Of a stretch of 64,000 nt of DNA, positions 7,708 through 49,598 are shown in pieces. This DNA comes from a virus: positions 1-64,000 of IMG/VR virus record IMGVR_UViG_3300020186_000396; one strand, given 5' to 3'. The first letter of the stretch is position 1; each line of letters opens with the position of its first letter. A program made the position numbers and the translations under genes. Under the pieces are notes generated by a model, which was not told the origin of the DNA, did not search any database, and saw only the letters and a list, made by a program, of their open reading frames with translations.

Positions 7708-8469
7708 GTGACTAAAAAAGAGGAAATCGAAAAAGCAAATCAATACAATGCAGCTCGAAAAAAACTGCAAGTATCAATTCAAGATGTATACACTACCTTT
7801 TGGTCATTGTTTGACAATACCGATAGTATCATTGAGAATGAAATTGATTTACAATCAGGTTTAGAAAAAAAGATTTTAGACCTCTTCAAATTAAGCGCTT
7901 ACGAGGGTCGTAAAGTTTTTTCTCGTATTGTTTATCGCCAAGTTAGTCAAAAAATATACGCGTCCGACGCAGGTAAATCAGTAAATTGGTTACTTAAATT
8001 CAGCAATCAGTTACCTGACCCAATGATCCAGAAAATATTAAGTCGTTCAATTATTCTTCGCGGCAACATCAATATGTTATCGCAACTCGCTTCAGTTCGA
8101 ACAAAAATTCCAGTAGATCTTTGTGATAAAGCAAGTATCACGAAAGACCACGTGAAATGTTTGAAATTGGTTATCATGCACATGGGAATGCACGATATCA
8201 ATGCTGATTTTCGTTACAGTAAAAATCTCATTCACATAGCTTCTATTAATGAAGAATTAGCGACAACCCTCGAAGAGCATATGCTCAAAAAGGCGCGTCG
8301 CTATAAAAATTTCTACCATCTGGTTGGGTACATGGAAAGTTGCCCGACAGTAGATAAAAGAAAATTCTTCGTTGAGATTTTCAAACATAAAACACACTAT
8401 AATGCCAGGATCGCAATCGAACGCCTGAAAAAACATCCAGAGCTACATAAGTACTTCAATCTTACTTAG
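7708..8469 (+). CDS. Unknown helical protein
   Basis: 253 residues from GTG. Nearly all predicted helix with regularly spaced Lys/Arg and aromatic residues (FSRIVYRQVSQKIYA, HLVGYMESCPTVDKRKFFV), which suggests an alpha-helical repeat or solenoid. It resembles in style the C-terminal part of the 9654 product and the 16736 repeat protein, but a clear repeat length was not found. No catalytic motif. Confidence 0.6.
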   Translation: MTKKEEIEKANQYNAARKKLQVSIQDVYTTFWSLFDNTDSIIENEIDLQSGLEKKILDLFKLSAYEGRKVFSRIVYRQVSQKIYASDAGKSVNWLLKFSNQLPDPMIQKILSRSIILRGNINMLSQLASVRTKIPVDLCDKASITKDHVKCLKLVIMHMGMHDINADFRYSKNLIHIASINEELATTLEEHMLKKARRYKNFYHLVGYMESCPTVDKRKFFVEIFKHKTHYNARIAIERLKKHPELHKYFNLT

Positions 8470-10704: not shown

Positions 10705-11613
10705 ATGCAACGAGTATATGTTCTTCGTGGTCTTCAGGCGTCAGGTAAAAGTACTTTTGCCAAAAACTTAATCAAAACCGATTCTAACAGCTGGAAGCGG
10801 ATTAATCGAGATCTCATGAGAGAGATGCTTGATGATAGCGTTTGGTCTGCAAAGAATGAAAAGTTCGTTGTAAAGACGCGCGATTTCTTGATTGTTGAAG
10901 CGCTACGCAAAGGTCACAACGTCATTGTGGACGATACCAATCTTACTCCTAAGAATTTTGATGACATATGTAAACTGGTAGAAGATACCAATCTAGACGT
11001 CATTGTAACGGAAAAGAATTTTCTCGTTGATTTGGAAGAGGCGATCGTTCGTGACGCTGCACGAGCCAAACCGGTTGGTGAGGCAGTTATACGCGCAACG
11101 TACAAACGGCACGGAGTGAAGTACGACAAAGGCTACAACTGTCGTAGTAAAACGTTCACGAAGAAAATTCTTCAAGCGGCATACGCATTCGATCCGAAAC
11201 TGCCATCAATCGTTTTGTGCGATCTTGACGGAACGCTCGCCATCATCGGCGCTCGTAACGTTTACGACGCAGAGAAATGTGATGAGGTCGATATCCTGAA
11301 TGAACCTGTCGCAGAGACGGTTCTGAAGTACCATGCCGCTGGATACAAAATCGTTTTCTTATCTGGTCGCAAAGATACTTACGAGGCCGCAACGCGTCGT
11401 TTCATCGATAAACATCTTGGCATCCCGTACGAGCTGTACATGCGCAGCGCAAGCGATAGTCGTAAAGACTCGATTACGAAGGTGGAACTGTTCGATCAGC
11501 ACATTCGCGGCAAATACAATCCGTTCTTTGTGCTTGACGATCGTGATCAGGTTGTTCGTGTTTGGCGTGATCTTGGCCTGACCTGCTTTCAGGTCGCAGA
11601 TGGAAATTTCTGA
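10705..11613 (+). CDS. pseT: Polynucleotide 5'-kinase / 3'-phosphatase
   Basis: 302 residues, T4 Pnkp layout. The N-terminal kinase domain has the P-loop GLQASGKST (residues 9-17) and the DDTN motif of this kinase family. The C-terminal HAD phosphatase domain has DLDGTLA, LSGRKD and LDDRDQVVRVWR. In T4 this enzyme heals RNA ends left by anticodon nucleases (removes 2',3'-cyclic phosphate, phosphorylates 5'-OH) so RNA ligase can seal them. Two RNA ligases, a macro-domain protein and a Thg1-like enzyme lie within 10 kb, which supports tRNA repair. Confidence 0.93.
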   Translation: MQRVYVLRGLQASGKSTFAKNLIKTDSNSWKRINRDLMREMLDDSVWSAKNEKFVVKTRDFLIVEALRKGHNVIVDDTNLTPKNFDDICKLVEDTNLDVIVTEKNFLVDLEEAIVRDAARAKPVGEAVIRATYKRHGVKYDKGYNCRSKTFTKKILQAAYAFDPKLPSIVLCDLDGTLAIIGARNVYDAEKCDEVDILNEPVAETVLKYHAAGYKIVFLSGRKDTYEAATRRFIDKHLGIPYELYMRSASDSRKDSITKVELFDQHIRGKYNPFFVLDDRDQVVRVWRDLGLTCFQVADGNF

Positions 11614-13836: not shown

Positions 13837-15005
13837 CAATCTCCAAAAAGAATACCCCTCCCTTTAGGGAGGGGATGAATTTTTGTTCCAGAAAAATATA
13901 ATGCGCTATATAAGAGCATAGCCATGAGAAGATCCTATAAATATAGAATTTATTTGAATAAAAACCAGCGCTTCGCGCTGGTTAATTCATTTCATTTCTG
14001 TAAGAATCTTTATAATGCCGCTCTGGAAGAACGCATATCTTTTTACAAAAGATATGCTAAATCAAAATCATATGTAGATCAAGCAAATCAACTACCAGAA
14101 CTAAAGCGTCTCTTTGAAAAAGAGACGCAAAATATACATTCTCAGAGTCTTCAGTTTGTTCTGAAAACTCTGGATAACTCTTTTAAATCCTTCTTCAGAA
14201 GGATTAAAAGCGGAGATACTCCAGGGTTTCCTAGATTTAAATCGATTGATCGATTTAAATCAATATGCTTTCCTCAATGTGATCTCAAGACCGGAGGAGC
14301 GAAGCTCCTCCCGAATGGGAGACTGAATATCAGAGGAATACCTGGAGACATTAAAATCAATATGCATCGTCCTTTTGAAGGACGATGGTTTAGGATGATG
14401 GAACTTCGTTCCATCATCCGTGGTAATGAAAGAGGTTATGCCAAGATCAATTCCGGTAGTCTTACCGGTCTTTGGAAGGAGTTTTTCCAAAACTCCTTCG
14501 CAAGAAAGTATAATGAAGAAAAGATCTCCTTCCTTCTTTATCTGAATTGTCTTACATATAATAAGATAGCCAATCAGAGATCTGATTGGCAACATAAAGT
14601 TGCCAATCAATTAGTTAAGGACAACGATGTAATCGTTGTCGAGGATTTAAATGTTAAAGGAATGCTCGAAGCCAAAGGCTTCGAGGTATCTAAAGGAAAT
14701 ATAGCGGATGCATCTTGGGGCAACTTTGTTGCCCTCGTAACCTACAAGGCTGAAAGTGCTGGTAGGATCTTGATCAAGGTGAATCCAAAGAACACGTCGA
14801 AGACGTGTTCTTATTGCGGGAATATTAATAAGCTCTTAACCTTACGGAATAGAGTTTACGATTGCGATGCCTGCGGCATCGCCATCGATAGAGATATTAA
14901 TGCGGCAATAAATGTTAGAAGGCTCGGGACGAGCCTTGCGATATCCGGCGAAATAAATTCGCCGGATACTTTCAGAAGCCTCGCCCTTTAGGGCGAGGTA
15001 GTTCA
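13837..15005 (+). mobile_element. IS200/IS605-type tnpB element, copy C (1,169 bp), internally inverted
   Basis: The left end abuts TTAT (13833-13836). The right end is GTAGTTCA at 15005. Boundaries are fixed by restoring the interrupted host gene. It contains tnpB only; no tnpA is present. The ends carry hairpins (CCCCTCCC-TTTA-GGGAGGGG near the left; AAGGCTCG, ATCCGGCGAA and CCTCGCCC stems at the right). The right-end block probably corresponds to the omega-RNA region, with the guide taken from sequence after 15005. The segment about 14388-14555 is inverted relative to copy A, and sequence after it appears deleted. Confidence 0.9.
13924..14991 (+). CDS. tnpB: TnpB, open frame but RuvC-I motif inverted (probably inactive)
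   Basis: A 355-residue open frame. The N-terminal region, RuvC-II (VIVVEDLNVKGML), zinc finger (CSYCGN...CDACG) and RuvC-III (DRDINAAINV) are intact. Between GDIKINMHRPFEG and KIANQRSDW the sequence is not TnpB-like. The reverse strand of this stretch encodes the missing part, including GIDLGITSF with the RuvC-I Asp. About 40 further residues usual after RuvC-I are absent. The inverted stretch happens to remain open on the plus strand. With no RuvC-I Asp it should not cut DNA, though it might still bind omega-RNA. Confidence 0.88.
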   Translation: MRRSYKYRIYLNKNQRFALVNSFHFCKNLYNAALEERISFYKRYAKSKSYVDQANQLPELKRLFEKETQNIHSQSLQFVLKTLDNSFKSFFRRIKSGDTPGFPRFKSIDRFKSICFPQCDLKTGGAKLLPNGRLNIRGIPGDIKINMHRPFEGRWFRMMELRSIIRGNERGYAKINSGSLTGLWKEFFQNSFARKYNEEKISFLLYLNCLTYNKIANQRSDWQHKVANQLVKDNDVIVVEDLNVKGMLEAKGFEVSKGNIADASWGNFVALVTYKAESAGRILIKVNPKNTSKTCSYCGNINKLLTLRNRVYDCDACGIAIDRDINAAINVRRLGTSLAISGEINSPDTFRSLAL

Positions 15006-15441: not shown

Positions 15442-16695
15442 ATGATTTTATTGGTACAGGATTTTCTGCGTACGCAAACCTTTCTTGCTTTGGAGCAGCT
15501 CCATGGCGTTGAGATGTCAGTTGATCGTAGATTTGGTCATAAGTTCAGCTTGAACTACAATCAGATTACGTCTACTGATTCGGATCCGTTAGCGCAACAG
15601 TGCCGTGGGCTAATTTTGTCTAATGGCTCTTCGTTGTTAGAAAATTCAAAAATGGTAGATGGTCGCGCGAATTTCTCGCACATATGTCCAGGTAGCACTA
15701 AAATACTTGCGTATCCGATGGATCGATTTTTCAATTATGGTCAGGGCAGTTGCGCTCCTATCAATTGGAACGACCCGGAGTTGAAAACGTTCGAGAAGCT
15801 TGACGGTACGTTGTGTATCGTTTATTTCGACTCAATCATTAATGAGTGGCATGTCGCGACACGTTCAGTGCCGGAGGCGGACATTCCACTTCTGAATCCC
15901 GAGTACACATTCAGAACTCTTTTCGAGAGAGGGCTGAAAAACGTGGGCAATGTTTCGTTTTTTGAGTTTGTTCGTGGGCTCGATCCAGAGAAAACTTACT
16001 GCTACGAGCTAACGTCGCCGTGGAATCGTGTCGTTGTTCGTTACGACGATACCAAAATTACACTCTTGGCTGTCCGTAATAATGTAACTAAATTGGAAAG
16101 CCTTCCGGAGAAGGAAGGCGGGTCTTTCGTTTATGTCCCGGTAGTACAGTACTACGACCTCGGAACCATTGAAAAGGTTGTAGATTTCGTTAATTTGCAA
16201 AACCCAATGGATCACGAAGGTATTGTTCTTCGTGACTCAAAATACAATCGTATCAAAGTAAAGAATGCCTCGTACGTTGCGTACAGCAAGGCGCGCGACT
16301 CCTTAGCAAAATCACCAAGGGCCTGCCTTGAGCTTGTCATTAATGAGAAGGCTGACGATGTCATGCCTTACATGCCTAACGAAATCGCTGAAAATCTCAA
16401 GAAGATTCAGTTAGCGCTTGCTAACTACTTGCGCACTTATGATCTTAGCTATCAGCTTCTTGATATGACAGTGCAAAACCGCAGACTAACAGATCCTTCC
16501 GTTATGGGTTGGAGCGATCAGAGACTATTTGCAATATGTACTGAGGAAATGGATATATGGAAGGGCCCGTGCTTTGCTATCCGTTCTGGCAAGGCGAAAA
16601 ATGCGCTCGACTACATTCATAAATCCAAAAAACTTGGAAGCTATACAAATGGTTTTCTGGACAATCTATTAAAATTGATAGGTTGCTATACATAA
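15442..16695 (+). CDS. RNA ligase, T4 Rnl1 type
   Basis: 417 residues, close in length to T4 RNA ligase 1. Adenylyltransferase motifs appear in order: KLDGTL (motif I, Lys119 the AMP acceptor), FEFVRG and CYELTSPWNRVVVRY (III/IIIa), HEGIVLRD (IV) and RIKVKNASYVAY (V), then a helical C-terminal domain. The enzyme seals 5'-phosphate to 3'-OH RNA ends, the step after the kinase/phosphatase at 10705. T4 uses this pair to undo anticodon-nuclease cuts. Confidence 0.92.
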   Translation: MILLVQDFLRTQTFLALEQLHGVEMSVDRRFGHKFSLNYNQITSTDSDPLAQQCRGLILSNGSSLLENSKMVDGRANFSHICPGSTKILAYPMDRFFNYGQGSCAPINWNDPELKTFEKLDGTLCIVYFDSIINEWHVATRSVPEADIPLLNPEYTFRTLFERGLKNVGNVSFFEFVRGLDPEKTYCYELTSPWNRVVVRYDDTKITLLAVRNNVTKLESLPEKEGGSFVYVPVVQYYDLGTIEKVVDFVNLQNPMDHEGIVLRDSKYNRIKVKNASYVAYSKARDSLAKSPRACLELVINEKADDVMPYMPNEIAENLKKIQLALANYLRTYDLSYQLLDMTVQNRRLTDPSVMGWSDQRLFAICTEEMDIWKGPCFAIRSGKAKNALDYIHKSKKLGSYTNGFLDNLLKLIGCYT

Positions 16696-18541: not shown

Positions 18542-18714
18542 TGAACTACCTCGCCCTAAAGGGCGAGGCTTCTGAAAGAATCCGGCGAATTTATTTCGCC
18601 GGATATCGCAAGGCTCGTCCCGAGCCCCATTGCTACTCTATATAACGCATTATATTTTTCTGGAACAAAAATTCATCCCCTCCCTAAAGGGAGGGGTATT
18701 CTTTTTGGAGAATG
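18542..18714 (-). mobile_element. Miniature tnpB-family element, copy D (173 bp)
   Basis: Minus-strand copy with TTAT (ATAA at 18715-18718) at its left end. It keeps the left end through the tnpB start codon, then joins directly to the last 85 bases (GGGGCTCGGGACGAGCC to GTAGTTCA). The junction ATG-GGGCTCGGG is identical to copy F, so both come from one deletion ancestor. It holds no gene. It lies in the 5' region of the minus-strand gene ending at 18530. Confidence 0.88.
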
Positions 18715-18740
18715 ATAACATTCACCAAGATAGTCGACAA

Positions 18741-19397
18741 ATGAAATACCCGCGCACATTTCACTTTCCATGGTCCGAAGGTGCTACCTCCGATGACAAA
18801 ATCGCCAAAGATGTATCTCGACTAATCAAAACTGGTATCGTCGTGACAGAAAAGGTCGACGGATCAAATACGTGTATGACACGTGACGCTTGTTTCTCTC
18901 GTTCTCATGCTGGCCCCCCAACGCACGCTAGTTTTGATGCGTTTAAAGCAATGCACGATTACGTAAAATATGAGATTCCAGAAGGAGTCGAAGTGTTCGG
19001 AGAATGGTGCTTCGCACTTCACTCGATTCCATATCACAACCTACCTGCTTATTTCATGGTCATCGGAATCCGCGAAGGTAACCGTTGGTGGGCTTGGCGC
19101 GACGTGGCAAAATTCTGCGGTATGAATGGACTTGCATCCGTTCCAGAATTGTTTTTTGGGTCGGTTGATAATGAAGCCCAGCTGTTAGAGCTGACTATTC
19201 GTGATGCCAGCGCTCAATCTCATATCGGAGCGGCGCCAAAATGGGAACGCGAAGGCGTTGTTGTTCGAGTATTGGAATCTTTTGATGATTCAGATTTTTC
19301 CAAATGCGTTATGAAATGGGTTCGAAAGAATCATGTTCAGACTAGTGAACATTGGAAGAATCAAACGATCGTTAAAAACAAAATCAAAATTCCTTGA
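18741..19397 (+). CDS. RNA ligase family protein (Rnl2/Rnl5-like)
   Basis: 218 residues from ATG 18741 (MKYPRTFHFPW). The open frame extends upstream to 18630, but that part lies in element D and is not counted. Ligase motifs: EKVDGSN (I, Lys38), VFGEWCFALHSIPY (III), EREGVVVRV (IV), VMKWVRKNHVQ (V). It is a minimal adenylyltransferase domain. A second ligase beside the Rnl1-type enzyme may seal different break types, such as nicks in duplex RNA. Directly followed by the macro-domain and Thg1 genes. Confidence 0.85.
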   Translation: MKYPRTFHFPWSEGATSDDKIAKDVSRLIKTGIVVTEKVDGSNTCMTRDACFSRSHAGPPTHASFDAFKAMHDYVKYEIPEGVEVFGEWCFALHSIPYHNLPAYFMVIGIREGNRWWAWRDVAKFCGMNGLASVPELFFGSVDNEAQLLELTIRDASAQSHIGAAPKWEREGVVVRVLESFDDSDFSKCVMKWVRKNHVQTSEHWKNQTIVKNKIKIP

Positions 19398-19429: not shown

Positions 19430-19933
19430 ATGCAAGAATCATATAAAGATCTTTTCAGTTTGGTAAACGAATTCGATGCACTTTGTATAACTACAAACGG
19501 TATCGTTAAGTCTTCTGGCGCGGCAGTGATGGGCGCTGGTGTGGCGAAGACTTGCGCCCAGTTGTGGCCGCAGACACCTCTCATTCTAGGAGAGCTGCTG
19601 GTATCGAGCGGGCGCAACATACCATTCCATCTAGGAAATGTAACAGATGGGAATTTTTGGACAGAAACAAATCCAGAAACAGAAGAGACTTTGCATTTCT
19701 GTCGCATTTTCAGTTTTCCAACAAAACATCATTACTCAAATCCATCTGATATCGATCTCATTAAAGAATCGTGTCATCATATGGTTGTGTTTGCTGACCA
19801 GCTGAAAATGAAGAGCATAGCTCTATCTCGGCCTGGTTGCGGGAACGGCGGGTTGTCCTGGAATGATGTCAGGCCCATTGTTGGTAAAATTTTAGACGAT
19901 CGTTTTCACGTAATAGAGCGTAAAGGTAATTGA
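19430..19933 (+). CDS. Macro-domain protein (ADP-ribose processing)
   Basis: 167 residues. ITTNGIVKSSGAAVMGAGVA matches the macro-domain ADP-ribose loop, and IALSRPGCGNGGLSW matches the second phosphate loop, as in the Poa1/ADP-ribose-1''-phosphatase and DarG-like groups. Such enzymes hydrolyse ADP-ribose derivatives. Placed between an RNA ligase and Thg1, it may remove ADP-ribose 1''-phosphate from 2'-phosphate RNA repair, or remove ADP-ribose placed on nucleic acid by a host toxin. The sequence does not decide between these. Confidence 0.82.
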   Translation: MQESYKDLFSLVNEFDALCITTNGIVKSSGAAVMGAGVAKTCAQLWPQTPLILGELLVSSGRNIPFHLGNVTDGNFWTETNPETEETLHFCRIFSFPTKHHYSNPSDIDLIKESCHHMVVFADQLKMKSIALSRPGCGNGGLSWNDVRPIVGKILDDRFHVIERKGN

Positions 19934-19934
19934 G

Positions 19935-20687
19935 ATGCCTACTGAAGTAGATTTGAAAATGAGACGCCTCGAAGCGTTCTCAACGATGCGCGTTCTTGAT
20001 GACGCGTGGTTTGTAGTTCGACTTGATGGCAGAAATTTCAGCAAGCTTACCAAAAAAGAATTCATCAAGCCATTCGACATCGGCCTGCAAGAGATGTTTG
20101 CTAAAACAACCACCATGTTAATGGAGGAATTTTCTTGCGCATATGGCTACGCCATTAGCGATGAAATCTCGTTGCTGTTTCAAAAAGACTTTAAAGTTTT
20201 CGATCGTCAGGTTGAGAAGATTGTTTCATTAACTGCCGCTGCCGCTTCGTCGCAAATGTCTATGCTGACTGGTAAACGAATGCAGTTTGACAGTAGGGTT
20301 GTAGTTCTTCCAGGCGATAAAAACGTTTTAGAATATTTTCGATGGCGCCAGGATGACGGATTCAGAAATGCACTCAGTGATTTGTGTTACTGGACTCTAT
20401 TAAAAAGCGGTAACGGTATGACTGAAGCAAAAGCTCAGACTGAATTGAATGGTCAAAGTTTTGAAAAAAAGATCACGTTATTGTTTTCACACAACGTGGA
20501 TTATTTCAAAATGCCAAGTCAGTTCCGGCGCGGAGCCGGTTTTATCTGGCAAAACTTTCAGAAAGAAGGCTTCAATCCACAATTGAACCAATCAGTAACG
20601 GTGGATCGGCGGCGCATTGCTAGTGTGTATGACCTTCCGGCAGGTACTGAGTACGAACAATTCATTACTAGTCAGCTAACGAAATGA
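19935..20687 (+). CDS. Thg1-like 3'-5' RNA polymerase
   Basis: 250 residues starting just after the macro gene stop. Catalytic elements are RLDGRNFSKLTKK (Asp31) and YAISDEISLLF (Asp76, Glu77), positions that match the metal ligands of Thg1 and its bacterial TLP relatives. YFRWRQDDGFRNALSDL and FSHNVDYFKMP agree with the family C terminus. The family adds nucleotides to the 5' end of RNA in a 3'-5' direction. TLPs repair truncated tRNA 5' ends. In this RNA-repair neighbourhood that role is likely. Confidence 0.9.
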   Translation: MPTEVDLKMRRLEAFSTMRVLDDAWFVVRLDGRNFSKLTKKEFIKPFDIGLQEMFAKTTTMLMEEFSCAYGYAISDEISLLFQKDFKVFDRQVEKIVSLTAAAASSQMSMLTGKRMQFDSRVVVLPGDKNVLEYFRWRQDDGFRNALSDLCYWTLLKSGNGMTEAKAQTELNGQSFEKKITLLFSHNVDYFKMPSQFRRGAGFIWQNFQKEGFNPQLNQSVTVDRRRIASVYDLPAGTEYEQFITSQLTK

Positions 20688-27180: not shown

Positions 27181-27845
27181 TTCAAATGATTACAGTGCAA
27201 TCCTGCGATTTTGTCGTGCGAAATGTTGAACGTTTTAAACATTTCGTATAGTACGGTCTCACCGCAGAAAATTCCATCTTGCGTTTCTCTGTAAGCATGG
27301 ATGTGATCTAGTAGATTAAATCCGCCACAGTATACGTTCATAAGTTGATTGGAAGCAAAAGCAAATCGATCATCAACCATTTCGAGTGGTAAATCTGGAC
27401 GTTCCGCTGTTTGAACAATATTTCTGTCAAACTGTGAACATTTAATCGGTTTTGTATATGTAATATCAAAACGAGCACGAATGACGTAGTCGTACGCGAC
27501 GTTATGCTCTAGGCGGTGATGTTCTTTCAATAGATTTACCTGAAGCAGGCTATACCACATGCTATAGACCATCTCTACAAACTTCTCTTGCTTGTAGCTT
27601 CTGCCGTGCGACACCATCATGCGATCCAGGGCCATATGGGTGTTGTGAATGATTTTAGGAGGTTCGACCTTCATCATTTTGGGCGCGAACAGTTTCTGTA
27701 TCTTGGCCTCCATAGGATCGCCAGGATTCATCCAAGTATGAATGAAGATGTCCGGGTTGTTCGGCCTGATTAAACAATCACGAATCGATGCAAACCCTTC
27801 GTCAACGCACCTAGGCAATCCTGAAATGAGGAGCGCTGTCTTCAT
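27171..27845 (-). CDS. Probable glycan-modifying protein (glycosyltransferase-like)
   Basis: 224 residues. The start ALLISGLPRCVDEGF is typical of a family in capsule and O-antigen loci, as is YDYVIRARFDITYTKP, with Arg and Asp in the place of a nucleotide-sugar site. DRFAFASNQLMNVYCGG follows. Enzymatic role not proven. It is the last gene of a leftward operon that begins at the divergent promoter near 34.29 kb, and overlaps the gene upstream by 4 bases. Confidence 0.6.
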   Translation of the reverse strand: MKTALLISGLPRCVDEGFASIRDCLIRPNNPDIFIHTWMNPGDPMEAKIQKLFAPKMMKVEPPKIIHNTHMALDRMMVSHGRSYKQEKFVEMVYSMWYSLLQVNLLKEHHRLEHNVAYDYVIRARFDITYTKPIKCSQFDRNIVQTAERPDLPLEMVDDRFAFASNQLMNVYCGGFNLLDHIHAYRETQDGIFCGETVLYEMFKTFNISHDKIAGLHCNHLNHR

Positions 27846-28324
27846 GGCTCTTTTAGTTCAGAAATAAAATCAGAACAAACCCCGTAGACGTGTTTGAGTC
27901 TTGCAGCAGAGAATCCGGGATACACATCGTTCTTTGCATCTGTAATATCCTGTAACGAGATCAATGGCACAACCGAGCGGCTGTCCGCTTCCATTAGATT
28001 ATGAGACCAAATCATATTGCAATGATTGATAATGGTATGTTCTTCTTTTTGGTGAAAAAATACCCTAAGGTTAAGCTCTATTAGGAAGCTTAGAGCTGCA
28101 TAGTTCTTAGTATGAATCCAAAGACTGTGTTTACGCTCGATAAGCCATGACAGTTCGATGGCATACTCTGGCTGGTCGTGGCCAAGATACAAAATTCCGT
28201 TGATGTATCGAACATCGATCTCGACGTCGTAACCGGCATCGATGGCTTCTTGAATATACATTTGACTGTTTTCGCGTTCTGGTATAACAGCGCTAATATT
28301 CCCTCGGTGGCTAATTAGTTTCAT
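27842..28324 (-). CDS. Glycerophosphodiester phosphodiesterase-like protein
   Basis: 160 residues, short for the family (usually about 240 or more). LISHRGN, ENS and YDVEIDVRYINGILYLGHD give the catalytic His, the Glu-x-Asp metal ligands and the second His of GDPD enzymes. The C-terminal half is reduced (WSHNLMEADSR, VYGVCSDF). It could act on a glycerol- or polyol-phosphate sugar intermediate. Co-transcribed with a HAD phosphatase and a nucleotidyltransferase in 4-base overlaps. Confidence 0.75.
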   Translation of the reverse strand: MKLISHRGNISAVIPERENSQMYIQEAIDAGYDVEIDVRYINGILYLGHDQPEYAIELSWLIERKHSLWIHTKNYAALSFLIELNLRVFFHQKEEHTIINHCNMIWSHNLMEADSRSVVPLISLQDITDAKNDVYPGFSAARLKHVYGVCSDFISELKEP

Positions 28325-28671
28325 ATTTCCTCTATCCTTTTTGCTTTGTCATCGATGACGAGATCATACATCGGTTTTTTATCGCCAAGCTCTAGTCTAT
28401 CAAACAACGCTCCCCATGTTTTTAGTTGGGTGAGAGTTAGATGGCGCAGATATTCTAAACGCTCTATGTTATCGGTTTGCGAGCTACCTCTGGCAGTCCA
28501 ATACACAATTATCCAACCTTCGTTAAAAAGCCGGTTAATCTTGGCGATGTTTTTAGCATTTGGTATGGCGTTTTCGTAAACGCGATCTCCGTCATAAAAA
28601 CATATCGTTTCGTCAATATCAACGAATGCCGTTAGTGTTTCATTGTTTTTATTGTGAATTTCGTTTTGCAT
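28321..28671 (-). CDS. Small HAD-family phosphatase
   Basis: 116 residues. Motif I AFVDIDETICFYD (nucleophile and acid Asp), motif II YWTARGSS, and motif IV YDLVIDDKAKR are visible. No cap domain, so it is a compact phosphatase like the capsule-locus HAD proteins. Its start overlaps the nucleotidyltransferase gene by 23 bases, and the two are likely successive steps in building an activated sugar or polyol. Confidence 0.85.
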   Translation of the reverse strand: MQNEIHNKNNETLTAFVDIDETICFYDGDRVYENAIPNAKNIAKINRLFNEGWIIVYWTARGSSQTDNIERLEYLRHLTLTQLKTWGALFDRLELGDKKPMYDLVIDDKAKRIEEI

Positions 28672-29485
28672 TATAAGCTGCCCAGTACCTGTAGCTTTTA
28701 ACTAGATCTTCTTCATTTTTGACCTGGGTACTGTTTAGTAAAGTTTGCCACGCTTCAAAATTTTCTACTTCTTCGGGAGTACCGAAGACCGTCACGTGAT
28801 CGGTCGGAAAACATGTGACCTTTAATCCGTCTTTGATTAGTAGATTGTACACCAGCGTTACGTAGTGCTCGCCGTTGTAGTTCACGTTCTGATCGATGGC
28901 GGCCTGGAAATACTTCTTAACGTCAGAACCCCTTCTGAAATAGTATGTGCCGGTACTTGCCTGCTCATTCATCGGATTGTTCGTGTACGGCTCTTTCTCT
29001 TTGATTTCGGAGACGACGAGGTACTGTTCTTTGATGTGAGCCATGAACGTCGGGCTCAATCGATGAGGATGAAACCCGCCGTGACTCAGAATACAACCAT
29101 CGCTACCCATTCTCTTAACCCAAATTTTGAACTGTTCGTAGTCCCAAAGATATGGATTATCACAGTAACAGATGATTACCTCCTCATCGTCCTTGATGTA
29201 CGATTCGTAATCGGTAGTCATGACCGTATGAATCGGGCCTTTCTTGTGATTTGGAATCGAGAAGATGGTGCAGCCAGGAGCCATTTCTGTAAGGACAGCA
29301 TGCATGTCCGTAGTGTGCAGATGCGTATCGTTGCAGATGAACACGAACTCATCTGTAGGGTCGAACATTTCGTAGATGTATTGGATGATACGTTTACCGT
29401 TTACTTTTATCAACGGCTTTGGGTCAGTGTACCCGGCACGCACAAAACGATCGCCAGTTCCGGCCATCGGTATTACTATTTTCAT
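28649..29485 (-). CDS. Sugar nucleotidyltransferase
   Basis: 278 residues. VIPMAGTGDRFVRAGYTDPK holds the nucleotide-binding GxGxRF-type loop and the catalytic Lys of the NTP_transferase fold. ICYCDNPYLW supplies the metal-binding Asp. GTYYFRRGSDVKKYF and NGEHYVTLVYNLL are typical of the small capsule-type members that also act on polyol phosphates. It lies between the kinase-aldolase fusion and the HAD gene, which suggests a pathway of phosphorylation, activation and processing. Confidence 0.85.
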   Translation of the reverse strand: MKIVIPMAGTGDRFVRAGYTDPKPLIKVNGKRIIQYIYEMFDPTDEFVFICNDTHLHTTDMHAVLTEMAPGCTIFSIPNHKKGPIHTVMTTDYESYIKDDEEVIICYCDNPYLWDYEQFKIWVKRMGSDGCILSHGGFHPHRLSPTFMAHIKEQYLVVSEIKEKEPYTNNPMNEQASTGTYYFRRGSDVKKYFQAAIDQNVNYNGEHYVTLVYNLLIKDGLKVTCFPTDHVTVFGTPEEVENFEAWQTLLNSTQVKNEEDLVKSYRYWAAYNAKRNSQ

Positions 29486-30945
29486 AATGCTTTCCTATAC
29501 TTCTCTGACTCTAGGTTTTTTAAGAAATGAACTTGTTCTGCCGTAAGATATCGTATCGTACCAACTTCGTGTCCGATTAACCCTATATAGTTATGAGCTG
29601 CTCGTATTTCCTTTTTGGATTCCTCGTTTAAAAAAACCGTAGCATCTGGAAAGAGATATTCTGGTGACTCGATGATATCGTCATTAAATTTCAAATCGAA
29701 TTCACCATAGTGTTCGATAACCTTCTCTAAACAGTTCTTTGCCCTAGTGGTTATGTCAGCCAATAACGTTTGAGCTTCTTGCGGGTCATTCGACGAAATG
29801 ATGATTCCGTGGTTCTCAAGGAAGAAAATCTTTTTAGCCAGGTCGCATGTTTTAATCGCTTCGAATAAACTGTAGCCAGGATGAGAGTATGGAATGTACT
29901 CGTAATCATATTCTGAATACAACTGTTTCATTAACTCTTTTGAGTTCTCAAGACACAAAAGCGTTGTTAAATAAATAGGATGAACGTGTATGACGTATTT
30001 GTCCAGTAAAGAGTGGAAACCGGTCTCCATAGATGGTCGTTTGTACTTTTCTGAAACGACGCTGCCGATTACCAATTCATCGAAAATTTCGGCAGATGAC
30101 AACGCAAAAATGTTTGGCCTAACAACAGAGTATCCGCCTAATTTGTAAACATCTTTAAGATTGAATCCGGATGATTTGATGACCATATAGTCCTGAACCT
30201 TGACGGATATGTTTCCTCCGCCGTTCTGACACATGTTAAGATCTTTTCCTATCGTTTCTGAAAGGTAAACGAACTTATTAAATTCAGCTATGTACGTCTC
30301 TATAAATGCAAACAGTTCTTTATTCACTTCATTGTTGAAGTGGATCTGGGTAACCAGTTTGATCTTTTCGTTTCGATTACCGATGTGTGTAATCGGGCGT
30401 TCGGTTGTCAGCCTGATGACAACGTCAGCTATGGCCATCTGGGCCTGTCTTATTTTGTAGCTGTCTACTCGGCGTTTGTTGATGGCATCGAGAGCAGAAT
30501 TGTACGTGTAACCGCGCTCCTCGGTATCTCTGATAATTTTCCAGTGAACTCGTAGCGTCTCATCTGTGTCGACAAAGATTTTTAATCCAAGAAGATCTTT
30601 ACTTGTTTCTGTGTAAAATGCGTGAAGCCCTTCAATAATTACCGTGGCTTTAGGAATGATTTTAGTGGGCGGATCGAAATGGCCCGTCTTATGATTGTAG
30701 ACCGAGCGGTAGATCGGTTTCCCTTGTGCCAGATCGGCCAAGTGCATATCACCAAGCTCCAGGTTATTAGCGTCTGGATTAAGATGCGTTATTTCATTCC
30801 ACATCTTACTGGTGCGCTCCCACTTATGCAGGTCGTCGGTACTTAGTATCGTCGTTTCCTGAACACCAAAAAACAGAGACACTATCTCTGCTATATTTGA
30901 TTTACCAACACCTGATTCTCCAGCAATGCCAATGATATTAATCAT
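29482..30945 (-). CDS. Fusion of uridine-kinase-like P-loop kinase and class II aldolase
   Basis: 487 residues. Domain 1 (about 1-205): GIAGESGVGKSN P-loop, STDDLHKWER, IIEGLHAFY, as in uridine kinase/phosphoribulokinase. Domain 2 (about 215-430): class II aldolase/epimerase with GGGNISVKV, VIKSSGFN, the zinc ligands of VIHVHPIYLT and LENHGIIISS. Each part looks complete, so the protein should phosphorylate a small sugar or polyol and cleave or form a carbon bond, or epimerise a phosphosugar. The overlap with both neighbours places it in the activated-sugar operon. Confidence 0.85.
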   Translation of the reverse strand: MINIIGIAGESGVGKSNIAEIVSLFFGVQETTILSTDDLHKWERTSKMWNEITHLNPDANNLELGDMHLADLAQGKPIYRSVYNHKTGHFDPPTKIIPKATVIIEGLHAFYTETSKDLLGLKIFVDTDETLRVHWKIIRDTEERGYTYNSALDAINKRRVDSYKIRQAQMAIADVVIRLTTERPITHIGNRNEKIKLVTQIHFNNEVNKELFAFIETYIAEFNKFVYLSETIGKDLNMCQNGGGNISVKVQDYMVIKSSGFNLKDVYKLGGYSVVRPNIFALSSAEIFDELVIGSVVSEKYKRPSMETGFHSLLDKYVIHVHPIYLTTLLCLENSKELMKQLYSEYDYEYIPYSHPGYSLFEAIKTCDLAKKIFFLENHGIIISSNDPQEAQTLLADITTRAKNCLEKVIEHYGEFDLKFNDDIIESPEYLFPDATVFLNEESKKEIRAAHNYIGLIGHEVGTIRYLTAEQVHFLKNLESEKYRKAL

Positions 30946-31863: not shown

Positions 31864-33075
31864 TTATCCTATAATTTCAAACTTCGGACAAGGAACAATA
31901 AACTTTCCGCCATTTTGGAGATAGTCTTGTTCGCGACTGACGAATTCATTAATAAAATGCCAAGGAAGAACTAACAGATAATCTGGCCTAGCTTTTCTCA
32001 TTTCGTCTTCTGAGAAGATCGGAATATTGGTTCCGACTGTCTTGAGGCCAAATTTGTACGGACTGCGCTCAGCAATACCATCAATCAACGTATGATCGAG
32101 TCCGAAAAATTGCAGAAGCGTGTTACCTTTGGTCGAAGCGCCATAGCCCCAAACGGTTTTGCCCTTAGCTTTAGCTTCTTTGATGAAGGCAACGGTAGTG
32201 TATTTTAGTTCTTCGATTTTTGAATAGAACTCATCCCAAGTGTAAAAGCTATCTAGGCCCTGCGTTTTCTCATAAGCTAACAAAGACGCTACCCTCATGT
32301 TACAAACATCTCGATGAGGCTGGGATGCAAACTTTTTGACGTCTCCGATCGTCTTCATCGCATAAACTCTGAACGAACCGCCGTTGATGTCGTTGAGTTG
32401 ACAGTCTACAATCTTGAATCCGTTTCGCTCGAACAGTGATTTCAAATTGAACAAAGAATAGTAATAGATGTGCTCGTGACAGATATTGTCAAATGCCATT
32501 TGTTTAATCATCAGCGGAGTATAGCTGAGCTGCAATACCCAAAGCCCATCATCTTCTAGAACTTCGGCTACGTCTTTAATGAAAACGTCTGGCTGATCTA
32601 GATCGTAAAACATCGCTATAGATGTAACTACTTTGGCCTTTAGATGGCCGAATTTAGATTCCTTGAATACTTTGGCTCCGAAATAATTCTGAATTACGTA
32701 ATCGCAATGTTTCTCGGCCTCATGTTTGAAAGAATCATCGGCCGGGTCAATACCGATCTTCTTCATGTCTGGGAGAAAACTAAGCAGCGTTCCGTCGTTG
32801 CTGGCGATATCAATCCAGAGGTCTTCCTTATTGACCTTGACAACTTTCATGATGGAATCGACGATGTCTTTTAGCTCGTTCTTCATCGTTGCGTTGATAC
32901 CAGATCTGTACCAATACTTTCCGTACATCGTGTCCATCGGAGCACATTTCTCTAATCGAACGGCACCGTGATCATCGAGCAATAGTTTCATTTCAACTTT
33001 GTCGTTTCGAGGTTCCTCGTTTGGCGCAAGGAAATCTGAAACGTATAGCTCGCCTAAAGTAAACAATTCTTTCAT
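31864..33075 (-). CDS. Sugar C-methyltransferase (SAM-dependent)
   Basis: 403 residues from ATG at 33075, which overlaps the stop of the next minus-strand gene by ATGA; a longer frame reaching 33132 is unlikely. DLWIDIASNDGTLLSF is motif I. AKVVTSIAMFYDL, HEHIYYYSL and GGSFRVYAMK are typical of the TylC3/NovU C-methyltransferases, as is the C-terminal VWGYGASTKGNTLLQFF Rossmann-like domain. The N-terminal zinc-binding Cys cluster common in the family is missing. It probably methylates a deoxysugar nucleotide made in this island. Confidence 0.85.
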   Translation of the reverse strand: MKELFTLGELYVSDFLAPNEEPRNDKVEMKLLLDDHGAVRLEKCAPMDTMYGKYWYRSGINATMKNELKDIVDSIMKVVKVNKEDLWIDIASNDGTLLSFLPDMKKIGIDPADDSFKHEAEKHCDYVIQNYFGAKVFKESKFGHLKAKVVTSIAMFYDLDQPDVFIKDVAEVLEDDGLWVLQLSYTPLMIKQMAFDNICHEHIYYYSLFNLKSLFERNGFKIVDCQLNDINGGSFRVYAMKTIGDVKKFASQPHRDVCNMRVASLLAYEKTQGLDSFYTWDEFYSKIEELKYTTVAFIKEAKAKGKTVWGYGASTKGNTLLQFFGLDHTLIDGIAERSPYKFGLKTVGTNIPIFSEDEMRKARPDYLLVLPWHFINEFVSREQDYLQNGGKFIVPCPKFEIIG

Positions 33076-34013
33076 TTTTCGTCCTTCATCATTATCGATA
33101 TCAAATCTTCGACCGAGTGTTTTGGTGTCCACTTTAGCTCTCTGGTAATCTTATTTATGTCAGCTCTCAGTATTGGGCGTTCTGGTCTAAGCAGCGTATT
33201 ATCAATGTCTATATAATCGGCGAAATTCAAATTCACATGCTCAAACGACCTTTGAATGAATTCTTTCGTAGAAGTTAGTGCCCCAGTACCTATAACGTAG
33301 TCGGTCGGATAACGGTTAGTCATCATTAAATGAACTGCTTCCATAAAGTCTGGAGCATAACCGTAATCCCTCATATCAAAAAGATTACCTATCTTCAGTC
33401 TTTCTTTGCTTCCGGCACTTATTTGTTTAGCGATTGTAGTTACCTTCTTGGTAAAGAAACCGCTACCTCGGCGTGGGCTTTCATGATTGAAGAATATTCC
33501 AGAGCAACAAAACATTCCAAATGTCTCGCGAAAGGCTCTCACCATATTGTCAGCATAAAGTTTTGCTGCGCTGTATGGTAATGTAGGTCTCGGATAAGTC
33601 ATTTCATCTTGCCATCCGGAACTATCATTGCCAAAAATCAAACACGATGATGCCTGAAAATACTTAATTTCTTTATTTACTTTCCGTATCGTTTCCATTA
33701 TAATTTGTGGAACATTAGCATTAAGCTGAAATGTTTGTTCAACATCTGTCCACGGATCGAAAATATTCGTAACTCCAGCAAAATTGTAAATCTCATCTGG
33801 TGAATGAGTTTTAATATAAAAATCCCAATCTACTGGGTTTGAAATGTTCATTGGTAAAATTTGAATAGATGGAACAAGGCTTTTCAGCCAGGCAATCTTG
33901 TTTGGGTCACTGTTGTATTTAACTACTCCGTACACTTCATAATTTTTAGAATCTAATAGTTCAGCTAGGTAGCTACCATCCTGGCCTAATGCTCCAACTA
34001 TGAACGCCTTCAT
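33072..34013 (-). CDS. GDP-mannose 4,6-dehydratase-like SDR, catalytic Glu lost
   Basis: 313 residues, extended SDR fold. GALGQDGSYLAELL binds the nucleotide cofactor, YSAAK keeps the Tyr-Lys pair, and FFNHESPRRGSGFFTKKV matches the GMD substrate region. The catalytic segment, TSELYG in ordinary GMD, reads SSCLIFG here, so the Glu used in water elimination is replaced. The gene at 34311 encodes a GMD with SSEMFG intact. This one may be an epimerase or reductase on a GDP-sugar instead. Confidence 0.85.
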   Translation of the reverse strand: MKAFIVGALGQDGSYLAELLDSKNYEVYGVVKYNSDPNKIAWLKSLVPSIQILPMNISNPVDWDFYIKTHSPDEIYNFAGVTNIFDPWTDVEQTFQLNANVPQIIMETIRKVNKEIKYFQASSCLIFGNDSSGWQDEMTYPRPTLPYSAAKLYADNMVRAFRETFGMFCCSGIFFNHESPRRGSGFFTKKVTTIAKQISAGSKERLKIGNLFDMRDYGYAPDFMEAVHLMMTNRYPTDYVIGTGALTSTKEFIQRSFEHVNLNFADYIDIDNTLLRPERPILRADINKITRELKWTPKHSVEDLISIMMKDEK

Positions 34014-37848: not shown

Positions 37849-38637
37849 ATGGCCATTCATACCTTAAAAGATAGAATCAACAGCTATCGCGATGCTTGCT
37901 CTCAGAAGCTTTTGCGTCGATTGCCTGTTGTCATCAACGTGAATGGTAGGGGTTTCCGCAGAGTTACGTCAATGATTGAGAAACCGTTCTCTGCCGATTT
38001 GGCAAACGTGATGTGCGCAACAGCTGTCAAACTCTGCCACGAGATTGATGGCGCTGTGTTTGCTTATACGTTCAATGATGACATCACAATCATTACTAGA
38101 AACGATCAGTCTTATGAAACGCAACCGTGGTTTCAGAATGATGTACAAAAAATTGTATCGGCCGCGTCATCTATTGCAACGCTTGAATTTAGCAATGCAG
38201 CCAAAGAAGTGGGTCTTGGCTCGCTTGCTGAAGCTATGTTCACCTCTCATGCGTTTACAGTTCCGTCGCTCACCGAGGCAATCAATGTGCTGATTGCCAA
38301 GCAACAGTTGGCGTCTCAATCGGCTCTTAACTTTTCTGTATTCTATGAGTTGACAGAAAAGTACGGTGATGATGCGATTGAGATTTTGCAAAACAGAACG
38401 CCAGATGACAAAGAAGAACTTCTTGAAGAGTGTGGAAGAAGCTTCAGTGCATACCCGGCTCCATTCAGACGAGGAGTGGCGTGTTATCGCTCACCTACTC
38501 TGGTAAACTCAAAAGATGGTGGCATTATCAAAAACAAATGGGTAATCGATCCTGATCTTCCGCTGTTTTCTAAAGACCAGGCCTTTCTTACAAATATATT
38601 TAAAACCGGCTCTGACATCATCAGAGCTGGACACTAA
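37849..38637 (+). CDS. Second Thg1-like protein with altered active site
   Basis: 262 residues. VVINVNGRGFRRVTSMIEKP aligns with the Thg1 segment RLDGRNFSKLTKK, but the metal-binding Asp is Asn32. AYTFNDDITI stands where SDE occurs, keeping the Asp but changing Glu to Asp. DVQKIVSAASSIATLEF matches the helix after the palm. The C terminus (PAPFRRGVACYRSP) also agrees with Thg1. The enzyme may be inactive or use other chemistry, or may work as a subunit with the intact Thg1 at 19935; Thg1 proteins are tetramers. Confidence 0.8.
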   Translation: MAIHTLKDRINSYRDACSQKLLRRLPVVINVNGRGFRRVTSMIEKPFSADLANVMCATAVKLCHEIDGAVFAYTFNDDITIITRNDQSYETQPWFQNDVQKIVSAASSIATLEFSNAAKEVGLGSLAEAMFTSHAFTVPSLTEAINVLIAKQQLASQSALNFSVFYELTEKYGDDAIEILQNRTPDDKEELLEECGRSFSAYPAPFRRGVACYRSPTLVNSKDGGIIKNKWVIDPDLPLFSKDQAFLTNIFKTGSDIIRAGH

Positions 38638-48059: not shown

Positions 48060-48424
48060 TGGAAGATATTATGAATAAAACCTTACTTAAAAAAGCGGAA
48101 TCAATTCTTGAGGATCGCAAAACAAAGATTCTGTCCAAAACAAACATCAGTCTCGATATAGATATTGAAGGTGATGAGACAGACGAGATTCAGGGTAAAA
48201 ATATTGCGTTGGTAAACAATCATATTCTTACACGAGATAAAGAGCGATTACACAAGATTGAAAGGGCGCTTACAAAGATCAAGGGCGGCACATTTGGAGA
48301 TTGTGAAGACTGCGAAGAACCAATTGAGGAAAAAAGGCTTTTAGCCAATCCTGAATTTAGTATTTGTATCTCTTGCGCATCCATGATCGAATTGAGAGCC
48401 AAGAGGTCAAGAGGGCATAATTGA
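48059..48424 (+). CDS. DksA/TraR-type zinc-finger protein
   Basis: 121 residues. A helical coiled-coil N-terminal part is followed by the C4 zinc finger FGDCEDCEEPIEEKRLLANP and SICISC, which is the DksA/TraR signature. These proteins enter the RNA polymerase secondary channel and alter transcription start. A phage copy could redirect host transcription. An alternative ATG is at 48071. Ends with a TTGA overlap with the next gene. Confidence 0.9.
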   Translation: MEDIMNKTLLKKAESILEDRKTKILSKTNISLDIDIEGDETDEIQGKNIALVNNHILTRDKERLHKIERALTKIKGGTFGDCEDCEEPIEEKRLLANPEFSICISCASMIELRAKRSRGHN

Positions 48425-49005
48425 ACACGGTCATAACTGAAAAAACAGCTACTGGAGATATTTCATACGATGTATTTTCAAAGTTAACGAACGACCGAAT
48501 TATATTCCTATCGGATTATATTGATGATGAGGTTGCTACAGATATTGTAGCGACCTTGTTGTATTTGGATAGCGTAGATCATACTGCCCAAATATCTATT
48601 TATCTTAATTCTGAAGGTGGCGATATTAGAAGTGTTTTCATGGTTTACGATGTTATCCAACTTTTGCGAGCACCAATTCAGACCATCTGTTTAGGTTCTG
48701 CTACGTTTGCGTCTGCAATCATTCTAGCTGCCGGTACTAAGGGCCTGCGTAGTGCTACAAAAAGTTCTGTCATATGCGTTAGTCAATTATCTTCTGACGG
48801 AGTAACGTACGGTGATATGACTGGAATCAGAATATCTTTCGAGCAGATGAAGAAAGATAATAAGAAATTGATTGATATCATAGCTAAGCTTACCGGCAAA
48901 ACCGCTGCTAAGGTCACTAAAGACTGTGAACGAAAATTATTTATGACTCCATTGCAAGCCAAAAAATACGGTATCATCGACCGTGTGTTGGAATGGAATA
49001 AATGA
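48421..49005 (+). CDS. ClpP-like protein, catalytic triad lost (ClpR-like)
   Basis: 194 residues from TTG 48421, which overlaps the previous stop. The ClpP fold is clear: DRIIFLSDYIDDEVA, IYLNSEGGDIRS, APIQTICLGSATFASAIILAAG and MTPLQAKKYGIIDRVL. Compared with ClpP, Ser of QAASMG is Phe, His of IMIHQ is Ser (ICVSQL), and the third-residue Asp is Lys (ERKLF). All three catalytic positions are changed, so it should have no peptidase activity. It lies directly before an intact ClpP gene and probably forms mixed rings with it. Confidence 0.88.
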   Translation: MNTVITEKTATGDISYDVFSKLTNDRIIFLSDYIDDEVATDIVATLLYLDSVDHTAQISIYLNSEGGDIRSVFMVYDVIQLLRAPIQTICLGSATFASAIILAAGTKGLRSATKSSVICVSQLSSDGVTYGDMTGIRISFEQMKKDNKKLIDIIAKLTGKTAAKVTKDCERKLFMTPLQAKKYGIIDRVLEWNK

Positions 49006-49598
49006 TTAAAAAACCGATAAAGAAAATGCAAGACCTAGAAGGGCTGAACTCATCATCTAGAAATCTAGAAATCTATTCAAGGTTAGCTAAGGATCGAATT
49101 ATATTTCTAACAGAGGATGTTACAAAAGAAACAGGAAGTTCTCTTTCAGCTTTGCTTTTGTATTATGACTCAGAGAATCACGATAAAGATATAAAAATTT
49201 ACATCAACTGCAATGGTGGTGATGCTACAGCTTTATCTAATATCTATGACGTCATGCAAATGATAACTGCACCTATACAAACCGTATGTCTTGGTAAAGC
49301 TTATTCGGCTGCTGCTATTTTGCTTGCAGCTGGCGCTCCAGGTAAAAGGTTTGCCACGAAGCATTCTGATATTATGATTCACGGAATACAAGCTCAGTTT
49401 CCGTTTACCGATAATGCAGATAAGATCGATTCAGAAATCGAAATGAAGATGCTTCAAGATCATAACGATATGATTATGAAGATCCTTGCCAAGCATACAA
49501 AGAAAACGTTCAAGCAGGTTGCTAAGGACTGTGAACGAGATTTGTACATGGATGCCAAAGAGGCATTTGATTATGGGATGATCGACGGTGTGTTATGA
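49002..49598 (+). CDS. clpP: ClpP-like serine protease, triad intact
   Basis: 198 residues, ATGA overlap with the previous gene. DRIIFLTEDVTKE, IYINCNGGDATA, CLGKAYSAAAILLAAG with the catalytic Ser, SDIMIHGIQAQ with His, and DCERDLYMDAKEAFDYGMID with Asp are all present. It lacks a long propeptide. ClpP works with a Clp ATPase; none is seen in the window, so it may use the host's ClpX or ClpA. Phage ClpP-like proteins also act as head maturation proteases, but no capsid gene lies nearby. Confidence 0.9.
   Translation: MIKKPIKKMQDLEGLNSSSRNLEIYSRLAKDRIIFLTEDVTKETGSSLSALLLYYDSENHDKDIKIYINCNGGDATALSNIYDVMQMITAPIQTVCLGKAYSAAAILLAAGAPGKRFATKHSDIMIHGIQAQFPFTDNADKIDSEIEMKMLQDHNDMIMKILAKHTKKTFKQVAKDCERDLYMDAKEAFDYGMIDGVL

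Follow-up and report, generated by a model that had tools for sequence, protein, structure and literature searches.

Within a 64,000-nucleotide stretch of viral DNA (positions 1 to 64,000 of IMG/VR record IMGVR_UViG_3300020186_000396, hereafter the window), one open reading frame of 487 amino acids joins a kinase that appears to be of the phosphoribulokinase (PRK) type to a class II aldolase. We give an even chance to the interpretation that this fusion is a bifunctional PRK-type kinase and zinc-dependent class II ketose-phosphate aldolase, acting in a phage cassette that would build a glycan precursor from ribulose 5-phosphate (Ru5P) through ribulose 1,5-bisphosphate (RuBP), ribulose 1-phosphate (Ru1P) and an aldol step. 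The comparisons below establish the fusion, its conservation together with its cassette, its intact active sites, the PRK-type substrate site, and an unfused bacterial counterpart that includes a HAD phosphatase resembling RuBP phosphatases. The frame lies on the minus strand, the plus-strand frame over the same stretch being broken by many stops, and its parts are as follows.

29482 to 30945, minus strand: kinase–aldolase fusion, 487 amino acids, coordinates including the stop codon; always a single frame in the 63 viral contigs that carry both domains
30331 to 30945, minus strand: predicted PRK-type kinase domain, approximately residues 1–205; Pfam PF00485, best solved sequences are PRKs
29485 to 30300, minus strand: class II aldolase domain, approximately residues 216–487; Pfam PF00596, fold matches 3m4r and 2opi
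30814 to 30828, minus strand: kinase H40–R44, the probable Ru5P-site motif, with D37 just before it; from the alignment, with roles as given in the available text of PMC5241800
30898 to 30921, minus strand: P-loop, residues 9–16; G9, G14 and K15 in 17 of 17 aligned fusions
30025 to 30027, minus strand: E307, presumed equivalent of the catalytic acid/base; invariant in the 17 fusions
29980 to 29988, minus strand: H320-x-H322, presumed zinc ligands, with the third histidine, H379, at 29809 to 29811; invariant in the 17 fusions and the 8 bacterial aldolases compared

Both halves exceed their family cut-offs: the Pfam PRK/uridine kinase family PF00485 spans residues 4–181 (E-value 5.8e-36; 124.6 bits, cut-off 22) and the class II aldolase family PF00596 spans residues 235–402 (E-value 2.3e-14; 54.2 bits, cut-off 22.2), and an AlphaFold2 model of the fusion is confident across both domains (mean pLDDT 88.8). 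These matches and the preserved sites confirm the original prediction, made from the letters of the sequence, that a complete P-loop kinase and a complete class II aldolase with an HxH site share one frame; that prediction had also raised a loss of active-site residues on close alignment as a possible objection, and the alignment has those residues retained. The window belongs to a virus record of 100,668 bp, the rest of which carries genes for a terminase large subunit, a portal protein, a DNA polymerase and a UvsX-like recombinase, and therefore represents a tailed phage.

To characterize the kinase half, we compared its residues with those of kinases of known type. In the available text of PMC5241800, Arg59, Tyr98 and His100 of the M. 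hungatei PRK (MhPRK) hold the phosphate of Ru5P, with His55 and Lys151 as substrate-binding residues; in the fusion, R44, Y83, H85, H40 and K136 stand at equal spacing. More broadly, the Ru5P-binding residue types (His45, Arg59/Tyr98/His100 of MhPRK, Lys165 and Arg168) are present in the fusion, as mapped through seven aligned PRK rows, MhPRK and RsPRK themselves being outside the alignment. Residues H40, R44, Y83, H85, K136, R139, R144, R158 and Q169 occur in every one of 17 viral fusions, eight kinases from the bacterial clusters described below and the seven PRK rows. In contrast, the two uridine kinases carry Y, S/E, Y, R, V and T/A at the positions of H40, R44, H85, K136, R158 and Q169, and share only Y83, R139 and R144 with the PRK-type kinases. 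The identity of the control rows rests on curated models: three PRK rows pass NF005655 (280–383 bits, cut-off 236) and three pass NF011997 (480–503 bits, cut-off 362), the seventh being 6hzk, while the two uridine kinase rows clear NF004018 at 326 and 191 bits (cut-off 180).

The sequence models point in the same direction, with the PRK subfamily NF005655 ranked first for the fusion at 195.3 bits, followed by the udk model TIGR00235 at 86.7 bits. The five best solved sequences for the kinase are PRKs, counting the fifth, 9qkn, whose label there reads uridine kinase but whose title says PRK, and the best fold match is the cyanobacterial PRK 9qkp (Z 23.5, 2.2 Å, 200 residues). Compared with PRKs such as Synechococcus 6HZK and cyanobacterial 9QKO/9QKP, the fusion shares the kinase fold, the P-loop, the position of the catalytic Asp and the His/Arg/Tyr/His/Lys set for Ru5P, but its kinase has only about 200 residues, is joined to an aldolase, scores under the PRK model cut-off and comes from records in which the photosystem protein family PF00124 was absent (0 of 44 searched). 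The assignment of the kinase as PRK-type, though not as a PRK proper, is thus well supported at the level of sequence. The original prediction had called it uridine-kinase-like, and this part is not supported, given a substrate site that is that of a PRK and the precedence of PRKs among both sequence models and solved sequences. One residue, W42, is found in all 17 fusions and the eight bacterial cluster kinases and in none of the seven PRK rows.

The aldolase half resembles 3m4r in fold (Z 20.6, 2.4 Å, 188 residues) and L-fuculose-1-phosphate aldolase 2opi (Z 18.6, 2.4 Å, 175 residues), and the HxH, the third His, the Glu and a GGN-S motif are invariant among the 17 fused aldolases. By equivalence to FucA, we take E307 to be the acid/base and H320, H322 and H379 to bind zinc. 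The best NCBIfam neighbours of the domain are the bifunctional rhamnulose-1-phosphate aldolase/SDR family (TIGR02632, PRK08324) and FucA, at 55.5 and 22.5 bits; the zinc and Glu residues are alike in most rows compared, but these scores are far below the cut-offs and the fusion partner is a different one. A profile built from the fused aldolases gave 65–126 bits on the aldolases of the eight cluster-bearing bacterial genomes, one of them truncated where its locus ends and another lying on a separate contig, and less than 50 bits on 15 of 16 other class II aldolases, 4 of these 15 giving no match. The nearest of the 16 (G024, 86 bits) lies beside an ABC transporter, an FGGY sugar kinase, an SDR and a HAD, a setting that fits a ketose catabolic operon, as expected for a ketose-1-phosphate aldolase.

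The fusion gene sits within a glycan island, with a pyruvyl transferase, a C-methyltransferase and a GDP-mannose dehydratase on one side and a nucleotidyltransferase (NT), a HAD phosphatase, a GDPD-like gene and a glycosyltransferase-like gene on the other.

33072 to 34013, minus strand: GDP-mannose 4,6-dehydratase family, by family match
31864 to 33132, minus strand: C-methyltransferase type protein, PF08484
30938 to 31849, minus strand: polysaccharide pyruvyl transferase family, PF04230, 44.7 bits
28649 to 29485, minus strand: NT, 278 amino acids, phrog_3980; PF12804, 32.3 bits (cut-off 27)
28321 to 28671, minus strand: small HAD phosphatase, 116 amino acids, phrog_1238; nearest solved chain 9iqw
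27842 to 28324, minus strand: GDPD-fold protein, 160 amino acids, from predicted structure and residues
27171 to 27845, minus strand: glycosyltransferase-like protein, in our reading of phrog_13607 and a weak DUF7796 match; overlaps the GDPD gene by 4 bases

From the pyruvyl transferase through the glycosyltransferase-like gene, neighbouring genes overlap by 4–23 bases in an operon-like manner, the start of the NT gene overlapping the end of the fusion by 4 bases. The NT passes the cut-off of its family, NTP_transf_3. The small HAD, which had no match among NCBIfam models, has as its nearest solved chain 9iqw, a ‘Capsule biosynthesis protein’ (E-value 7.8e-9). The GDPD-like gene had no Pfam match, and its predicted structure (mean pLDDT 95) gave best-ranked chains that are mostly GDPDs (Z 10.4, 3.4 Å, 146 residues), with H6, R7, E35, D37, H49 and D50 (HR, ExD and HD) invariant in 20 rows; these are presumably its active-site residues. 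On the modelled fold and these residues, it probably belongs to the GDPD superfamily. Pfam, PHROG and fold matches thereby bear out the gene neighbours that had been named for the fusion (pyruvyltransferase, nucleotidyltransferase, HAD and GDPD-like). Capsule loci had been proposed as the place to look; the sequence is that of a phage.

Viral loci were collected in two scans, one with the NT alone (43 loci) and one with the alignment of 17 fusions, A1 (66 loci), which together gave 75 contigs; a scan of viral contigs with the window's fusion protein alone confirmed no relative, whereas the NT and alignment queries did. Both domains occurred on 63 viral contigs and were in one frame on all 63, which rules out an artefact of a lost stop codon, an assembly slip or chance. 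Of these 63 contigs, 61 also encode the NT, 60 the GDPD and 30 a HAD of the window's type. The kinase is present in 36 and the aldolase in 37 of the loci from the NT scan, and among the loci found with the alignment, 60 have the NT; of the 58 pairs on one strand in the fusion scan, 48 have the NT directly behind the aldolase, with a gap of at most 50 bp. The locus sequence stops right behind the fusion match in five of the six loci that lack an NT, at the contig end in four of these five. The sixth, L095, is in a 268-kb record (IMG/VR 3300049217_000071), where a frame at 7986–8669 matches the kinase at its start (68%, window residues 4–170) and the glycosyltransferase-like protein at its tail (62%, residues 159–223 of that protein); these matches suggest that the middle of the cassette was lost in a natural deletion. 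Some loci without the small HAD have other HAD types, either a HAD–NT fusion (L058) or small HADs upstream (L082, L091 and L105), and a simple motif search of 11 loci found no HAD near the cassette in L010, L024, L030, L036, L038 and L072. The functional link that had been proposed among these genes therefore holds for the NT and the GDPD-like gene, which form a tight conserved cassette with the fusion, and less strictly for the HAD.

Beyond these contigs, all six matching records in a phage collection match one domain alone, and a BFVD look-up of the fusion returned best rows that read as single-domain proteins, the first being a Bodo saltans virus class II aldolase (A0A2H4UUW4). In a 34-row tree used to compare viral with bacterial kinases, the class I PRKs, which have long branches, come out in the midst of the viral rows, and the viral rows need two changes.

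The fused form was not seen in 84,980 prokaryote genomes scanned with two short motifs from the viral rows, which diverged fusions could escape; the three matches were partial and none covered both domains. Nor was it seen in 398 Pseudomonadota genomes searched with the fusion alignment, scoring four first-look candidates per genome, where seven genomes matched, all by the kinase half alone. What bacteria do have is an unfused counterpart. The E. coli plasmid NZ_CP145712.1 encodes, in one run, a tandem NT, GtrA, a family 2 glycosyltransferase (GT2), a GDPD, a longer protein ending in the kinase, a HAD and the aldolase, a cluster that megablast detected in 2 of 5,426 E. coli genomes, both times on plasmids. 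Similar sets are present on plasmids of Azospirillum (NZ_CP032350.1) and Hirschia (NC_012983.1), in 4 of the 398 Pseudomonadota genomes (G010, G018, G065 and G083) and in a Lachnospiraceae genome (G002). Kinase, HAD, GDPD and GT2 occur together in all eight clusters, GtrA was matched in six, and the aldolase and NT are in the same locus in seven, G065 having its NT and a similar aldolase on other contigs. Because the eight clusters span Pseudomonadota and Lachnospiraceae, two phyla keep these enzymes together without fusing them. Separate homologues with no functional link would have spoken against the original prediction; unfused bacterial homologues are still in one locus in seven of the eight clusters.

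The bacterial proteins also differ from those of the phage. Identities between the E. coli plasmid cluster and the window are 42% for the NT, 39% for the kinase and 31% for the aldolase. Unlike the phage fusion, the bacterial kinase is the C-terminal part of a protein of at least 660 amino acids whose N-terminal half looks membrane-bound by eye. The NT is a tandem, the HAD is of another subfamily than the window's, and the GDPD is longer; a tblastn search with the window GDPD listed no match on the bacterial loci, and the two may be different subfamilies. The best NCBIfam model for the cluster HADs is NF053830, RuBP 5-phosphatase, in all eight cases (168–191 bits, 54–107 ahead of the next model), at scores below its cut-off of 330 bits. 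We found no published function for the unfused loci, and an open-access literature search turned up no publication about either the fusion or the gene set. An arrangement related by description occurs in Campylobacter coli, for which the available text of PMC3928612 gives a ‘Haloacid dehalogenase-like hydrolase domain/phosphoribulokinase domain protein’ and, after it, two proteins putatively involved in capsular polysaccharide biosynthesis.

A reaction series can be proposed from these parts. In the first step, the kinase domain, whose site residues are in place, would convert Ru5P and ATP to RuBP, a compound otherwise familiar as the CO2 acceptor of photosynthesis. The HAD phosphatase would then take off the 5-phosphate to leave Ru1P, as suggested by the bacterial-cluster HADs being closest to RuBP 5-phosphatase. 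The aldolase, judged by its family and residues, would cleave Ru1P to dihydroxyacetone phosphate (DHAP) and glycolaldehyde, or invert C4 by the same retro-aldol chemistry. The NT would activate the resulting small sugar unit, the GDPD-fold protein might act on a phosphodiester along the route, and the glycosyltransferases of the island would attach the unit to a glycan. A precedent is found in haloarchaea, where, according to the available text of PMC9700705, a phosphatase converts RuBP to Ru1P and a zinc FucA-type aldolase converts this to DHAP and glycolaldehyde. Taken with the bacterial RuBP-phosphatase-like HADs, this means that the cluster kinase, HAD and aldolase fit one reaction series. 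This non-carboxylating pentose bisphosphate pathway shares with the cassette the steps of a RuBP phosphatase (a HAD) and a zinc FucA-type Ru1P aldolase, but it obtains RuBP from ribose 1-phosphate by a ribose 1-phosphate kinase and an R15P isomerase, and it is catabolic, serving nucleoside breakdown. The cassette would differ in its entry through a PRK-type kinase and in its use for building, set as it is among NT, GDPD and glycosyltransferase genes. The unusual activated sugar or polyol phosphate first suggested as a product thus stays plausible as a general idea, with a different kinase. For ketopentose-containing O-antigens, which we considered as products, a literature search gave nothing usable on biosynthesis.

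Several observations weigh against this proposal. The fusion falls short of the PRK model (195.3 versus the 236 bits of NF005655) and of the curated cut-offs of every NCBIfam model it matched, including udk (86.7 versus the 220.3 bits of TIGR00235), and E105, a Glu of Walker-B type, is replaced by Q or V in 3 of the 17 fusions and by S or C in all eight bacterial kinases; it is for the missed PRK cut-off and the replaced Glu that we call the kinase PRK-type and not PRK. Its fold ranking is mixed, with uridine kinases (Z up to 21.7) above the PRKs 5b3f (20.4), 1a7j (18.5) and 6hzk (18.2), and fold alone does not separate the two families; the fold look-up, its list filled mostly by the kinase half, was not used as a deciding test, and families absent from that list were given no weight. 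For the aldolase, the Ru1P aldolase model NF053831 matched neither the fusion (at an E-value threshold of 0.01) nor the E. coli plasmid aldolase, and on the aldolase of cyanophage Bellamy it was the second-best model at 59.7 bits, far below its cut-off of 300. The evidence for a RuBP phosphatase comes from bacterial HADs of a different subfamily than the window's. Since the Ru1P aldolase model gave no match and the window HAD had none in NCBIfam, the HAD and aldolase steps in the phage are tentatively assigned by analogy with the bacterial cluster. Further, if the HAD acts between the fused domains, the fusion would join non-consecutive steps unless the aldolase takes RuBP directly. Finally, the genes are separable: L025/L105 lacks an aldolase in the available stretch while having kinase, NT and GDPD. 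In L105 (7971–8657; IMG/VR 3300025437_000011) the kinase stops where the aldolase would start, and NT and GDPD come next, which makes this a form of the cassette with the kinase only. In several cyanophages, NT and GDPD are present with neither kinase nor aldolase, so that the NT and GDPD need not depend on the product of the fusion, and three cyanophage aldolases score 41–44 bits on the fused-aldolase profile, in the same range as unrelated class II aldolases, which means that close kinship to the fused aldolase is not shown.

We think it unlikely that the cassette works in the building direction, with the kinase acting on another ketose or polyol (or its phosphate) and the aldolase joining DHAP to an aldehyde; the product, an unusual ketose with a longer or branched chain, would then be activated by the HAD and NT. 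Class II aldolases can run in either direction and take several different aldehydes, as the available text of PMC9700705 reports for the haloarchaeal enzyme, the setting is one of glycan genes, and W42 sets the fusions and bacterial kinases apart from the PRK rows. Against this, the site for the phosphate of Ru5P and the RuBP-phosphatase-like HADs point to Ru5P and RuBP.

A metabolic shunt, in which a pentose phosphate (for example from degraded host RNA) is turned into DHAP and glycolaldehyde during infection and the glycan genes are nearby by chance or by shared island transfer, strikes us as distinctly improbable. The same chemistry does serve nucleoside breakdown in haloarchaea (PMC9700705, available text). 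However, DHAP alone requires neither NT nor GDPD, and the close placement of the NT behind the aldolase in 48 of 58 pairs, the GT2 in all eight bacterial clusters and the GtrA match in six of them are all difficult to reconcile with a chance setting.

We are more doubtful that the aldolase takes RuBP directly, yielding DHAP and glycolaldehyde phosphate and with the HAD coming in at a later point to act on either the C2 fragment or whichever sugar phosphate the NT uses. The fused domains would then be consecutive, in keeping with the single frame of all 63 fusions and with a HAD that varies in type and is sometimes fused to the NT instead (L058), but a RuBP 5-phosphatase, to which the bacterial HADs are closest, would remove RuBP. 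The reading that the protein merely unites a kinase for uridine or another nucleoside with an unrelated aldolase, with no joint pathway, is barely credible and is rejected by the substrate-site residues and model scores, since six uridine-kinase positions carry PRK residues and the cassette is conserved in 63 contigs, even though PRK and uridine kinase have a Pfam family in common.

Returning to the proposed route from Ru5P through RuBP and Ru1P, cyanophages offer a comparison from hosts that make RuBP by their own PRK. Bellamy and S-SM2 have the tandem NT, an aldolase, a window-type HAD and a GDPD in glycan islands, and no PRK-type kinase was matched in 16 cyanophage records with the GDPD. 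The Bellamy and S-SM2 aldolases stand alone and are distant from the fused one (30% and 26% over the matched parts); by tblastn, the only Synechococcus phages with a match to the aldolase are these two and S-SCSM2R, where it is away from glycan genes. The photosystem protein PF00124 was found in 3 of 3 cyanophages versus 0 of 44 fusion-bearing records (44 of the 63 fusion contigs were searched, many being fragments). This distribution would fit a phage bringing the kinase only where its host lacks RuBP. L025/L105, with the kinase but no aldolase in the available stretch, and the cyanophages that have NT and GDPD but neither kinase nor aldolase speak against a strict dependence. In the same type of setting, Bellamy gp206 (L003, 7136–8293) joins an NT to a LacAB_RpiB domain (ribose/galactose isomerase) and has a weak PfkB-type match next to it; it is another pentose-phosphate-linked fusion in a phage glycan island.

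These comparisons lead us to a wider reading that we advance tentatively, as one with less than an even chance of being right: RuBP would also be a precursor of surface sugars, with a PRK-type enzyme outside carbon fixation, a RuBP phosphatase and an aldolase leading to a new nucleotide-activated unit in bacteria of two phyla and in many phages, where phages of non-photosynthetic hosts bring the kinase–aldolase fusion and some cyanophages do without the kinase as the host supplies RuBP. In its boldest form, the GDPD-fold enzyme would move a phosphate to the anomeric carbon of a ketopentose to give a ketofuranosyl donor; any cyclic-phosphate or phosphate-moving role for this protein is speculation. 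PRK, class II aldolase and NDP-sugar genes in phages are of known kinds, and it is their combination here that is new. It suggests that these viruses channel a widespread five-carbon sugar phosphate towards a surface sugar. If so, surface glycans also draw on a metabolite otherwise assigned to carbon fixation and nucleoside salvage, phages carry this branch as a compact cassette, and its product would point to a new nucleotide-activated sugar that could alter phage receptors on the host. This would also give a testable substrate, Ru5P, for enzymes of polysaccharide loci that are named ‘uridine kinase’, ‘class II aldolase’, ‘HAD’ or ‘GDPD’.

Apart from the glycan island, the window holds an RNA repair set, all outside the cassette, of RlaP, a PNKP-type protein, two RNA ligases, a macro domain and two Thg1-type tRNA-His guanylyltransferases (4864–5946, 10705–11613, 15442–16695, 18630–19397, 19430–19933, 19935–20687 and 37849–38637). 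A part for the fusion in RNA repair was considered and set aside on account of that separation. The terminase large subunit of the record (896 amino acids; L117 11112–13799, record 95112–97799) has a LAGLIDADG endonuclease-like stretch at residues 225–405, perhaps an intein. Also in the window are an IS605-type TnpB/Cas12f-like gene (13924–14991), two adjacent genes that by eye are ClpP-like proteases (48421–49598) and a patatin-like phospholipase gene (8487–9632).

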